Below are positions 6,807 through 51,114 of a stretch of 64,000 nucleotides of DNA, one piece after another. How positions within the stretch are numbered: the first letter of the stretch is position 1; each line of letters opens with the position of its first letter. Both the position numbers and the translations under genes were made by a program. The DNA comes from Sphingomonas flavalba (GTDB lineage: Bacteria; Pseudomonadota; Alphaproteobacteria; Sphingomonadales; Sphingomonadaceae): contig NZ_SPHY01000001.1 in NCBI RefSeq assembly GCF_004796535.1, positions 1 to 64,000 of the forward strand, written 5' to 3'. The notes under the pieces are model-generated. The model was not told the origin of the DNA. It saw only the letters and a program-made list of their open reading frames with translations, and did not search any database.

Positions 6807-6961
6807 GGCATTCCCGTGAATGGTCGGAACGGGTGCGTCTTAGCGCAAGCACGGCGCCACGCAACCATTGGCGACAATTCAGCGGATGATTAACCCCTGC
6901 TTTACCGGCCGGGCGTAACGCTGGCGGCGCCGGGGCGCCCCGGCCAGGCGGAGTGAACGGG

Positions 6962-8329
6962 ATGGCGGCAACCAACGAGATGAGCGCCGAAATGGCGGCG
7001 GCCCTGAAGGCGATTCGCATCCCTCTCGCCAGCCGGCTGGCCGATTTCGACCGCGACGGCCAGTTCGCCGACATCTGCCGCGAAGCCGGGGCCCTCCTCC
7101 AGGGCGAGGAACCGCGGCTGGCCCAGGATTTCTGCGAATTCTTCAACAGTTCGCCGCATGTGACGGACAAGATCAGCGGGGCCCTGCTCGAACGGGCGCT
7201 GGCGACCGCGGCCGACTATACGCGGATGCGCTATGCCGATCCGATGGCGCAGGACTGGGCCGACATGGCGCGCGACTACGCCCGCTGGACGCTGCGGGTC
7301 GGCATCCCGCAGGCGACGCTGCTCGCGGCCCTTGCCCATGTCCACAGCCATGCGCTCACCAGCATCCGCCAAAAGGTCGGCGACGACGACGCCCGTTTCA
7401 TGCGACTCGCCGACGCGGTGCTGCGCCTGTCGTTGCTCGAGGCGGAAATCATGTCCGCCTATGTCGCCGAATACGAAGCGACCCGTGTCCGCTTCGAACG
7501 CGGCCAGCATGCCGATCTGTTCAAGGACCGGATCGCATCCGAAGTGTCGACCACCTTCGGCCTTGGCGAGGCATTGCGCGCCCAGGCCAAGGACGCATCC
7601 GAATCCGCGCGCGGCATGCTCGGCAAGGCATCTGAAGTCGCCGCCGCCGCCGAACAATCGGCCATCGCGATGCGCGAGGCGGCACACACCGCCGCCGGCC
7701 TGATCCGCGCCATCGAGGAAGCCCGCGGCGAAGTCGAGGTCGCCGCCGGAGTCGCGACCCGCGCCGCCGAACAGGCGACGACCGCCGTCGACATGTCGGA
7801 ACAGTTGAGCGGCCACGCCCAGTCGATCGAATCGATCCTCGGCCTGATCCGCGACATCGCCGGCCAGACCAACCTGCTCGCCCTCAACGCGACAATCGAG
7901 GCGGCCCGCGCCGGCGACGCCGGCCGCGGTTTCGCCGTCGTCGCGCAGGAAGTGAAGAGCCTCGCCAACCAGACGGCGCGCGCCACCGACGACATCGCCG
8001 CGCGCATCGCCACCATCCAGTCGGCGACGCGCACCACCGTCGACGCCAACGGATCGATCCGCGACACGGTCAGCGACGTGCAGCGCTCCGCCGACCGCAT
8101 CCGCACCGCCATGGAAACCCAGGCGCATACCGTGACGATGATCACCGCCGCCGTCGACGAAACCGCGCTCGCCGCCGACTCGATGTCGACGACGATCGCC
8201 TCGATCCGCGCCGACACCGAAAATGTCGCGTCGGAGATCGACCAGCTCGAAACCGGCTTCCGCAAGGTCGACACCCAACTGTGCGACCTGAAGCGCGCCG
8301 CCGACGACTACGTCCGCATGGTCGCCTAG
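6962..8329 (+). CDS. Soluble methyl-accepting chemotaxis-type sensor with globin-like N-terminal domain
   Basis: 455 residues with no membrane segment. The C-terminal half is an MCP signalling domain: the hairpin tip [20 protein letters not shown] and [16 protein letters not shown] are clear at about residues 300-340, with heptad-rich flanks. The N-terminal 170 residues are all-helical and resemble the sensor domain of globin-coupled sensors (HemAT-like, protoglobin fold). However, the usual proximal-His motif (H-x-x-I-G-L) reads TLRVGI here, so haem binding is doubtful. The ATG at 6962 has GGAG about ten bases upstream; a GTG at 6953 is the alternative. No che or motility genes are nearby, so it may feed a distant chemosensory array or a non-motility pathway. 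It is transcribed divergently from sdhCDA. Confidence 0.8.
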
Positions 8330-10130: not shown

Positions 10131-11003
10131 TCAGCCCCGCCGCTTCCCCGCCGCATACGCCTGTGTGCCGCGGGTCAGCACCCGGTCGCCGTCGACGATT
10201 GCGTCGACCGCCAGGTCCGGCAACCCGTCCAGCGCGGCATAGAGCGGTGCGAAATCGGTCTCCACCGTCACCCGCAGCAGCTCCTCGAAGCTGGGGATGA
10301 CGAAATAGCTCTGCTGATAATCGTCGATCCGGTAATCGGTGCGCATCACCCGCTTCAGGTCGAAACCGATGCGGTTGGGGCTGGGGTCGTCGAGCGCGAA
10401 GATGCTCTCCCCCTTCGACGAGACGATGCCGGATCCGTAGATGCGCAGGCCGCCGGCCTCCTCGACCAGCCCGAACTCGACGGTGTACCAGTACAGCCGC
10501 GCCAGCCTGGTCAGCGATCCATATTCCAGCGCCCGCAGCCCGCCCAGGCCATAAGCGACCATATAGTCGGCGAACACCGGGTCGGCGAGCATCGGCACAT
10601 GGCCGAACACGTCGTGGAACACGTCCGGTTCCTGCAGATAGTCGAGCTGGTCGCGGCGGCGGATGAAATTGCCGGCGACAAAGCGCCGGTTGGCGAGGTG
10701 GTCGAAGAACACGGCATCCGGCACCAACCCCGGCACTGCGACGACCTGCCAGCCGGTCGCCTTCGTCAGCCGGTCGGACAATTCGCCGAAATCGGGGATT
10801 CCGGGCTTGGACAGTTTCAGCACGTCCAGCCCGCGCAGCCACGACTCGGATGCGCGGCCGGGCAGCAGCGCCGCCTGCCGCGCGAACAGCAGATCCCAGG
10901 TCGCGTGGTCTTCGGGCGTATAGGCGGCCCAGTCCTGCGGAATCGTCCAGTCAGGCTTCGCGCCGGCCGGCGGCCGGCCCAGCACATGCGTGTCAGCGCT
11001 CAT
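10131..11003 (-). CDS. phhA: Phenylalanine 4-monooxygenase
   Basis: 290 residues, the length of bacterial single-domain aromatic amino acid hydroxylases. It converts L-Phe to L-Tyr using a tetrahydropterin and O2. The non-haem iron ligands are visible as His130 and His135 in FHDVFGHVP and Glu176 in YWYTVEFGL. ATG 11003 is chosen because the N-terminal residues after it fit the family, whereas the longer frame from 11099 adds a non-homologous lead. No Lrp-type regulator or pterin carbinolamine dehydratase (phhB) lies next to it. The pterin supply genes may be the folM-like and folB-like pair at 49973-51114. Confidence 0.93.
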   Translation of the reverse strand: MSADTHVLGRPPAGAKPDWTIPQDWAAYTPEDHATWDLLFARQAALLPGRASESWLRGLDVLKLSKPGIPDFGELSDRLTKATGWQVVAVPGLVPDAVFFDHLANRRFVAGNFIRRRDQLDYLQEPDVFHDVFGHVPMLADPVFADYMVAYGLGGLRALEYGSLTRLARLYWYTVEFGLVEEAGGLRIYGSGIVSSKGESIFALDDPSPNRIGFDLKRVMRTDYRIDDYQQSYFVIPSFEELLRVTVETDFAPLYAALDGLPDLAVDAIVDGDRVLTRGTQAYAAGKRRG

Positions 11004-48958: not shown

Positions 48959-49804
48959 ATGCGCATATTGACGACCCTGGCGCTACTGTTGGCAGCTACC
49001 GGCATGCATGCCGCCCAAATGACTGATAAACAATCGGTTAACATGGGCGCGGAGGCCCCACCCTATACCTATGCGGACCTCGCCGACCTGGCCCTTGCCG
49101 CCCCTGTCGTGTTGTCCGGAACGGTGGCGAAAACGGTCCGGCTGAAGGGCGAACAGGCGGCCGGCGTCCCCCCCGGCAAGGTCCGGCTCTACGTTACCGT
49201 CACCGTCGCGACGTTGATTCGCGGGGCCAACGGGATCCCTTCAACCGTGAACTATCTCGTCGACCTGCCGCTCGATTCGCGGGGCCGCCCGCCCAAGCTG
49301 AAAAAGGCGCAGGTCATTCTCCTCGCCGCCGCCGCGCAAGGTGGCGACCTGCGCCTTGTCGCCCCCGACGCGCAACTGCCGTGGGCGGCGGAAGCCGAGG
49401 CGACGCTGCGCGCGATCCTGAAGGAAGCGACCGCCGCCGACGCGCCGCCGCCGATCACCGGCGTCGGCAGCGCGTTCCACGTGCCGGGCAACCTGCCGGG
49501 GGAAAGCGAAACCCAGATTTTCCTGCGCACCGCCGATCGCCGCCCGGTTTCGCTGAGCGTGCTGCGCCGCCCCGGCGCGGCGCCCGGCTGGTCGGTCGCG
49601 CTGAGCGAGATCGTCGACGAGGCGGCCGCACCGCCGCCGCCGGCCAGCCTGCTGTGGTACCGGCTGGCCTGCGGCCTGCCCCGAACGCTGCCCTACGAGG
49701 CGCTTGCCGGCGCCGACCCGGCGCAGGCGGAGATGATTCGCGCGGATTATCAGGTGGTGATCCGCCAGCTCGGCCCGTGCGAGCGCAGCCGGCAGCGGGA
49801 TTAG
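48959..49804 (+). CDS. Secreted protein of unknown function
   Basis: 281 residues. The signal peptide is MRILTTLALLLAATGMHA. The mature part begins PPYTYADLADLALAAPVVLS, with a repeat-like GTVAKTVRLKGEQAAGVPPG and VRLYVTVTVATLIRG, suggesting a beta-rich domain; the end has LACGLPRTLPYEALAGADP. It looks like a conserved sphingomonad hypothetical, but I cannot name a family. GGAGGACCG precedes the ATG. It is divergent from tonB. Confidence 0.75.
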   Translation: MRILTTLALLLAATGMHAAQMTDKQSVNMGAEAPPYTYADLADLALAAPVVLSGTVAKTVRLKGEQAAGVPPGKVRLYVTVTVATLIRGANGIPSTVNYLVDLPLDSRGRPPKLKKAQVILLAAAAQGGDLRLVAPDAQLPWAAEAEATLRAILKEATAADAPPPITGVGSAFHVPGNLPGESETQIFLRTADRRPVSLSVLRRPGAAPGWSVALSEIVDEAAAPPPPASLLWYRLACGLPRTLPYEALAGADPAQAEMIRADYQVVIRQLGPCERSRQRD

Positions 49805-49868
49805 GGCGGCTCGCCATTCAGAAGATGGCGGGCCGTCCCGGAGCGCGGTCATTGGTGATGGGACCGTC

Positions 49869-49937
49869 ATCCCGGCGAAGGCCGGGATCTTGCAGGTGCG
49901 CCAGGCCGAAAGGGGAGATCCCGGCTTTCGCCGGGAT
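49869..49937. repeat. Pair of palindromic units (ATCCCGGC...GCCGGGAT)
   Basis: Two perfect 8-bp-arm hairpins, 49869-49888 (loop GAAG) and 49918-49937 (loop TTTC), stand in opposite orientation about 30 bp apart in the 168-bp gap after the secreted-protein gene. The gap has no gene. Convergent transcription from both sides suggests a two-way terminator or a repeat of the REP class. Confidence 0.65.
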
Positions 49938-49972
49938 GGCGGCATGTGCGCATCGCCCGGCGCGGAGGCCGG

Positions 49973-50734
49973 TCAGCGCCCTTTGCCGAGGTGGATGAAG
50001 TCGCGGTCGAAGGCGGTCAGGCTGGCGCCGCCGTCGACGAACAGGATCTGCCCGGTCGTCGATTCGGCGGCGGCGAGAAAGGCGACCGCGTCGGCGACGT
50101 CCGCCGGGCGAGACAGGCGGCCGAGCGGCATCATCGCCGCCAGCCGGTCGACCTGTTCCGGCACATAGTCGGCGGTCGGCAGGGTCAGGCCCGGCGCCAC
50201 CCCGCACACCCGCACGTTCGGCGCCAGCGCCCGTGCTAGAGTGCGCGTCATTTCCGCCAGCAACTGCTTCGACAGGGTGTAGGACAACTGGTCGCGGTGC
50301 GGGTTGACGATGCGTTCGTCGAGGATGTTGACCACCGCCAGCGGCGCGGCGGGGCCGGCCATCGCCGCCAGCGCCAAGGTCAGCGCGAACGGCGCGACCG
50401 CGTTGACCGCCAGATGGGCGCCGAGGCCGGCGCTGGTCGCCGTGCCGGCGTCATCCTCCTCGAAGCGGGCGGCGTTGTTGACCAGCAGCGTCGGCGCCAT
50501 GCCGAAACGGGCGCGCACCTGTTCGGGCAGCGCCGCCACCGCCGCCGGGTCCGCCAGGTCGGCGGCAAAGCGTTCCACCGCGACGCCGGCGGCGGCGATC
50601 CGTTCGGCCAGCCCCGGCTCCAGCCCGCCGTCCTGGCTGGCATGGAGGGCCAGCGCGTAGCCGTCCTCGGCCAGCCGCCCGGCGATCGCCGCGCCGAGCC
50701 GGCGGCAGCCGCCGGTGACCAGCGCCAGCTTCAT
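49973..50734 (-). CDS. folM: SDR reductase, FolM/pteridine-reductase-like
   Basis: 253 residues. TGGCRRLG at residues 7-14 resembles the TGGARRIG turn of pteridine reductases more than the usual TGxxxGIG. NNAARFEEDD, VNILDERIVNP (where most SDRs have a catalytic Ser) and YTLSKQLLAEMTR with the catalytic Tyr and Lys fit FolM. The function would be to reduce dihydromonapterin or dihydrofolate with NADPH. It overlaps the aldolase gene by 4 bp (ATGA), so the two form one operon. The symbol is tentative: the motif set and partner support it, not a search. Confidence 0.7.
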   Translation of the reverse strand: MKLALVTGGCRRLGAAIAGRLAEDGYALALHASQDGGLEPGLAERIAAAGVAVERFAADLADPAAVAALPEQVRARFGMAPTLLVNNAARFEEDDAGTATSAGLGAHLAVNAVAPFALTLALAAMAGPAAPLAVVNILDERIVNPHRDQLSYTLSKQLLAEMTRTLARALAPNVRVCGVAPGLTLPTADYVPEQVDRLAAMMPLGRLSRPADVADAVAFLAAAESTTGQILFVDGGASLTAFDRDFIHLGKGR

Positions 50735-51114
50735 GGCGCGTGGCGGACCATCGTCAGCCCGATCGATTCGCCGTTTTGCGATATGGCGAGCTTGACGATC
50801 TTGACCGAGACGCGGCGGACGCGCGGGTCCTGCAGGAACAGGGTGTCGGCGATGTGGTCGGCGATCGATTCGATCAGCCCGAAATGGACGTCGCGCGGGA
50901 TCGCCTCCGTCACCGCGCGTTTCAGGTCGAGATAGTTCTTCGATGCCGACAGCGGCGTTTCCGGCGCGAACCGGTCGGGGCAGCGCAGGTCGGCGGTGAC
51001 CGAGATGCGCAGCGGCTGGGGCAGCTTGGTTTCTTCCGACAGGATGCCGGTCAGCAGCGCGATGCTGATGTCGCTGACCTCAAGGCGCAGCAGGTCTTCC
51101 GCAGTATCGATCAT
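50731..51114 (-). CDS. folB: Dihydroneopterin aldolase family protein (FolB/FolX-like)
   Basis: 127 residues. SASKNYLDLKRAVTEAI and FGLIESIADHIADTLF are the dihydroneopterin aldolase/epimerase signatures, and RRVSVKIVKL is near the end. Members act on dihydroneopterin (FolB, folate route) or its triphosphate (FolX, monapterin route). Which one this is cannot be decided by eye. The pairing with a FolM-like reductase suits a pterin-cofactor role. Confidence 0.78.
   Translation of the reverse strand: MIDTAEDLLRLEVSDISIALLTGILSEETKLPQPLRISVTADLRCPDRFAPETPLSASKNYLDLKRAVTEAIPRDVHFGLIESIADHIADTLFLQDPRVRRVSVKIVKLAISQNGESIGLTMVRHAP

Follow-up and report, generated by a model that had tools for sequence, protein, structure and literature searches.

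The closest known systems to the gene pair considered here are PruA of Agrobacterium and the FolM protein of Brucella (5tgd, 5bt9), SDR proteins with the motifs TGX3RXG and YX3K that make up the pteridine-reductase signature (PMC1971073, PMC13259868). According to the available parts of these two papers, PruA reduces dihydromonapterin to H4-monapterin (PMC13259868), dihydroneopterin aldolase (DHNA) interconverts dihydroneopterin and dihydromonapterin (PMC1971073), and folM-like genes clustered with pterin genes were predicted in 2007 to encode pteridine reductases (PMC1971073). Further points of comparison are FolM of the E. coli/Pseudomonas type, a dihydromonapterin reductase, the FolB DHNAs, and FolX, the dihydroneopterin triphosphate epimerase. 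Our reading of the pair agrees with the prediction of 2007, and this kind of operon is therefore already known; the variant lies in the aldolase, which is divergent and precedes the reductase. Within the collection searched, no literature on a pteridine reductase in Sphingomonas was found, and the sole match for folB or dihydroneopterin aldolase in Sphingomonas concerns, in the part of the source available, encapsulins. The pair and the gene for a possible user of its product lie in the window, i.e. the whole stretch of 64,000 nucleotides analysed, as follows:

50731-51114, minus strand: FolB-domain protein, probable DHNA of a divergent 'type A' (127 aa, ATG start), first gene of the pair
49973-50734, minus strand: SDR reductase, predicted pteridine reductase of the PruA/FolM type (253 aa, ATG start), with the motif TGGCRRLG and an Asp-Tyr-Lys active site
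50731-50734, minus strand: 4-bp stop/start overlap of the ATGA type between the aldolase and reductase genes
10131-11003, minus strand: phenylalanine 4-hydroxylase PhhA (TIGR01267 score 328.4, cut-off 264.75), about 40 kb from the pair, a possible tetrahydropterin user

Both open reading frames exist and share four base pairs, as originally predicted, and the reductase gene is probably translationally coupled to the aldolase gene. No sigma-70-like promoter site was found for the pair. Beyond it on the minus strand lie genes for TonB and for TolQ/ExbB-like and TolR/ExbD-like proteins, and divergent from folB are GNAT, DUF1285, CoA pyrophosphatase and CCA-transferase-like genes. A nearby NUDIX gene was considered as the missing folQ, an identity that we rejected because the gene passes the CoA pyrophosphatase cut-off (168.5 vs 134). 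Located 3′ of the reductase gene is a 27-bp inverted repeat (49864-49942, 93% complementary, 25-bp gap) whose sequence has this one site in the window, once per strand, with a chance expectation of 0. A 281-aa ORF on the opposite strand (48959-49804) between tonB and the pair matched neither Pfam nor NCBIfam models under the thresholds applied.

The reductase matches the Pfam family adh_short_C2 with 106.8 bits, and its residues fit the pteridine-reductase signature: TGGCRRLG corresponds to TGX3RXG, YTLSK to YX3K, and an Asp is found 13 residues before the Tyr. The significance of this Asp in place of the Ser before YxxxK we take from PTR1. The best PDB sequences are 5tgd and 5bt9, Brucella FolM by their titles, with 121 bits over nearly the full length, followed by PTR1 with 86 bits. 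E. coli FolM, in contrast, reaches 43-44 bits and, despite the common TGX3RXG and Asp-Tyr-Lys signature, falls in a separate clade on a long branch. The earlier description of the reductase as FolM-like is thus apt as far as the signature and the Brucella protein are concerned and does not extend to the E. coli enzyme. Even from PruA and Brucella FolM the reductase differs in forming a separate clade of its own family and in being encoded downstream of, and overlapping, folB. It misses the NCBIfam cut-offs of PRK09134 (216.7 vs 281), PRK09135 (149.5 vs 288) and the FolM-type model NF005066/PRK06483 (79.2 vs 249 bits), and our prediction of a PruA/FolM-type pteridine reductase is therefore that the protein works like one, judged by its signature residues, and not that it belongs to an equivalog.

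The resemblance to the Brucella FolM/PruA group would also be compatible with a tetrahydropterin made for signalling of the PruA-PruR-DcpA type. The window's genome, unlike those of the PruA/FolM systems, has no match to PF00174, the PruR-type domain, at an E value of 1, although the profile may miss PruR itself; on this absence we set PruR-type signalling aside, and consider it most improbable.

A generic FabG-like SDR that neighbours folB by accident would be another explanation. The folds are indeed alike, a fold search with the reductase giving tied scores for FabG (Z 30.8) and PTR2 (Z 30.6), and fold searches separate neither PTR1 from FabG nor DHNA from FolX. A larger tree placed 94 signature-type proteins on one side and 24 classical SDRs on the other at a branch support of 86, which is not strong; in a smaller tree with four classical SDRs these adjoin the window's reductase clade at 89. 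Since the two trees differ on the position of the classical SDRs, the deep branching order is uncertain. At 15 of 80 named type-A folB loci the reductase gene lies directly downstream of folB, at gaps of -4 to +17 bp; no such reductase was found in the stretch examined at the other 65 loci, as an accidental neighbourhood would allow. However, the signature residues are present in all 15 linked homologues and in none of the 20 second-best SDRs read. Moreover, the best reductase match starts within 1.5 kb of the folB match in 64 of the 98 genomes of the order and is near folB or PTPS in 74. Because of the 64 genomes and the 15 named loci, the pairing of folB and reductase is more than chance, and we regard a generic SDR as quite unlikely.

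The pteridine reductases of the 50 Sphingomonadaceae genomes belong to three lineages, A (20 genomes), B (11) and U (19). Type-A reductases adjoin folB in 19 of 20 cases, the window included, the copy of one genome (G088) being on another contig; each type-B reductase precedes a type-B folB, whereas those of type U are unlinked to folB. The Asp is kept in 50/50 and TGX3RXG in 49/50, the exception (G048) reading TAGFHRLG with the Arg retained. Second-best SDR matches were read for 20 of the 50 genomes, 20 proteins altogether, and each proved classical and without the signature; there is therefore likely one pteridine reductase per genome. Elsewhere in the order a reductase homologue adjoins PTPS in 14 of the 98 genomes (among them L196-L198, L202-L204 and L208 of family f7, and L205 of f6), and some of these loci have a second, type-B FolB alongside. 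In the four family f7 reductases that were read, the TG of the motif is replaced by TA or SA before a conserved Arg.

The aldolase contains a FolB domain (PF02152, 56.6 bits, above the Pfam gathering threshold of 31.8) and falls below the NCBIfam cut-off for the folB equivalog (TIGR00525, 44.2 vs 72.15 bits); for this reason we file it as a divergent FolB-family protein and do not claim equivalog membership. Its residues E28, Y61, E82 and K108 align with the catalytic Glu, Tyr, Glu and Lys of E. coli FolB and are invariant in two alignments of 13 and 18 type-A proteins. These columns we take to be the catalytic positions of FolB. Unlike E. coli FolB, which has KPGA, the window's protein reads KLAI, and the mean identity of type A to the other FolB groups amounts to 18-25%. 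An AlphaFold model (mean pLDDT 77) adopts the DHNA/FolX fold and retrieved both FolX (Z 13.7 for 1b9l, 12.3 for 4aey) and DHNAs (Z 10.9-13.2), scores so close that the fold offers no choice between the two. In a 128-row tree the type-A FolBs form a single clade of 40 (SH-aLRT 100) on a stem of 2.33 changes per column, apart from the FolX clade (9/9) and from 11 type-B FolBs of Sphingomonadaceae; the rows of 28 genomes were dropped as redundant, including type-A G067, G073 and G096, so that 40 of the 43 type-A genomes were kept.

With so long a stem, trees of this size cannot place the type-A clade. In AU tests neither the union with FolX (p 0.61) nor that with type B (p 0.47) was rejected, and the tree uniting type A with FolX had a likelihood 7.85 above that of the free quick tree. 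Comparison of profiles by hhalign, used in place of the trees, gave FolX the lowest score of seven groups (44.6), the six other FolB groups scoring 67-88; the groups entered in this comparison ranged in size from 3 to 40 rows. The FolB-like part of the original prediction is borne out by the fold; its FolX-like part meets with the least similar profile, and with trees that leave a kinship to FolX possible. A search for a second folB found none, which bears out one half of the refutation set out with the original prediction: the aldolase is the sole FolB/FolX-family gene (PF02152) detected by a profile search of the contigs, the genome being rated 100% complete (3.07 Mb, 35 contigs). The aldolase therefore probably works in the folate pathway, not as a separate FolX.

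The remaining folate genes are distributed over other contigs, with matches to folE on C4, folK on C12 and folA on C15. Three Pterin_bind genes were found on contigs C12, C23 and C33 (L297-L299), one of them within a frame of 889 aa that we assume may be MetH; setting this frame aside leaves two DHPS-like (folP-like) genes on C12 and C23. A bypass of FolB by PTPS was considered and discarded on the lack of any PTPS match in the genome; none of the 50 Sphingomonadaceae genomes has a PTPS above the cut-off (one match, in G088, lies below it). As the folate gene set requires a DHNA and the aldolase is the only candidate found, we read it as the DHNA of the cell; a folate DHNA and not a dedicated FolX is its most likely identity.

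If the aldolase makes folate, the adjoining reductase might be coupled to that pathway as a back-up dihydrofolate reductase (DHFR1) instead of supplying unconjugated tetrahydropterin. The title 'FolM alternative dihydrofolate reductase' is given to its Brucella homologues, and in the available part of the review H2folate is the substrate on which the PruA homologue from P. aeruginosa shows its highest activity (PMC13259868). The same text has Agrobacterium PruA using H2folate ineffectively and the Brucella homologue with a similar profile (PMC13259868), and the 2007 study, in the part at hand, holds that FolM most probably does not normally serve to reduce folate (PMC1971073). Moreover, all 98 genomes of the order have folA, this one included, on which count we also rejected a replacement of DHFR by the reductase. 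A back-up role is thus unlikely.

Type-A folB occurs in 43 of the 50 Sphingomonadaceae genomes and is the only FolB in 39 of them, the remaining seven of the 50 having type B alone. It is worth pointing out that the window's protein misses the folB equivalog cut-off even though its clade provides the only FolB in so many genomes. Among the genomes of the order, no ORF retrieved outside Sphingomonadaceae contains the type-A motif. A scan of named genomes confirmed at least 560 relatives, the best 80 of which are mostly Sphingomonas by title, together with Parasphingopyxis, Hephaestia, Aquisediminimonas, Sphingosinithalassobacter, two entries 'Sphingomonadales bacterium' and one 'uncultured bacterium'; we take the name Sphingomonadaceae for the family (f1) from these titles. 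Four genomes (G030, G036, G090 and G097) possess both types of folB; their type-A gene has no adjoining reductase and their type-B gene is led by a pteridine reductase of its own (L116-L123). This arrangement suggests that folate and pterin roles are split in the two-FolB genomes.

The phhA gene of the window is flanked by genes for PrmA and a PEP-CTERM protein and, as had been noted from the sequence, has no adjoining phhB; PhhB, the genome's only Pterin_4a match, is on contig C16 (15173-15445). Elsewhere in the window, positions 6953-8329 encode a likely globin-coupled sensor, in which a protoglobin match at the N-terminus is combined with a signalling domain of the chemotaxis type. PhhA is present in 75 of the 98 genomes. 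The best reductase match is found no more than 1.5 kb from folB in 50 of the 75, as against 14 of the 23 genomes that lack PhhA (Fisher p 0.62, kinship ignored). In 26 Sphingomonadaceae genomes with phhA and folB on the same contig, the distance between them is 27.5, 32.2, 40.5 (the window's own) and 107.9 kb in four and more than 300 kb in 22; the linkage is not conserved. The idea that the three genes form one dispersed pathway for tyrosine formation thus finds no backing in these data. Since the pairing does not follow PhhA and the linkage is not maintained, PhhA may draw on the product of the pair and does not explain the reductase. That the pair feeds PhhA remains in keeping with the signature of the reductase, the FolB fold of its partner and the presence of PhhA and PhhB, while the pairing itself is independent of PhhA.

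It could still be argued that a FolX-like epimerase and a FolM-like reductase have the sole task of making H4-monapterin for tyrosine formation by PhhA. The signature, the genome's PhhA and PhhB, its lack of a PF00174 match and the favourable likelihood of the tree joining type A with FolX would all suit such a pathway. However, if the cell makes folate, an aldolase that is the sole FolB/FolX gene cannot be reserved for such a pathway, the FolX profile is the least similar, and phhA is unlinked in relatives and without bearing on the pairing. We therefore regard a dedicated PhhA pathway as rather improbable.

Genomes without PhhA are instructive in this respect. In 20 of these 23 the best reductase match has folB or PTPS nearby, two others (G016, G074) have a U reductase, and one (G055) shows a classical SDR only, so that 22 of 23 keep a reductase, seven of them by linkage alone. 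Thirteen of the 22 show TGX3RXG with the Asp; in two more (G031, G049) the Asp and the Arg are present and SAG or TAG replaces TG. The retention of a reductase in genomes lacking PhhA points to a further role of tetrahydropterin.

On balance we favour, with some reservation and as the simplest reading, a model in which one DHNA feeds both folate synthesis and a coupled PruA/FolM-type reductase, yielding a tetrahydropterin that PhhA can use and that has a PhhA-independent role as well. For folate, the aldolase would cleave dihydroneopterin to 6-hydroxymethyl-dihydropterin; as with other DHNAs, it would probably epimerize dihydroneopterin to dihydromonapterin as well. The reductase would convert a dihydropterin to the tetrahydropterin at the expense of NADPH, the product being most likely H4-monapterin or H4-neopterin; PhhA could take it as cofactor, with PhhB regenerating it, and the reductase would also act independently of PhhA. 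The sequence data show the anatomy of the genes, their domain families and signature residues, the single copy of the aldolase, the folate genes listed above and the lack of PTPS and PF00174 matches; we infer the activities, the substrate, the coupling and the use by PhhA. The pair would then probably mark the point at which the synthesis of folate parts from that of unconjugated tetrahydropterin. Organisms with a single FolB could make tetrahydromonapterin without FolX if both branches are fed by one aldolase.

In 15 of the 19 type-U loci (L176, L177, L182 and 12 others among L176-L193), the reductase gene is followed by genes for a cytochrome b561 and a SUOX-fold protein, in what is an apparent operon; Pfam scans identified PF00174 at three of the loci and PF01292 at one, and the other loci were assigned by similarity to them. 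At 11 of the 15 loci there is a 4-bp overlap between the reductase and b561 genes, based on start codons chosen by script. One genome (G071) has a 90-aa SUOX remnant only, and in three (G080, G082, G095) neither a b561 nor a SUOX-fold gene was found in the 5.2 kb examined. The SUOX-fold protein, probably periplasmic, has the motif TRHDCVEGWS in which the Mo-ligand Cys is kept. PruR, as described in the available part of the source, is without this Cys (PMC13259868), and the U-locus proteins therefore look like Mo enzymes. No literature that brings together a pteridine reductase, cytochrome b561 and sulfite oxidase was found within the collection searched.

A more tentative and, to our mind, doubtful extension would be that Sphingomonadaceae use unconjugated tetrahydropterin mainly for purposes other than PhhA, a pteridine reductase being kept in all the genomes sampled with its lineage and partner swapped: overlap with the divergent bifunctional aldolase/epimerase, first place in a canonical folB operon, or translational coupling to b561 and the SUOX-fold protein. 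If true, this would imply a conserved PhhA-independent function of tetrahydropterin, possibly in redox reactions at the membrane. Two family f2 genomes, G001 (L199, L213) and G008 (L200, L214), gave no FolB or HPPK match in drafts of 160-180 contigs. They do contain PhhA, PhhB, DHFR and a pteridine reductase with the signature, and may provide a test case for pterin use without folate synthesis.
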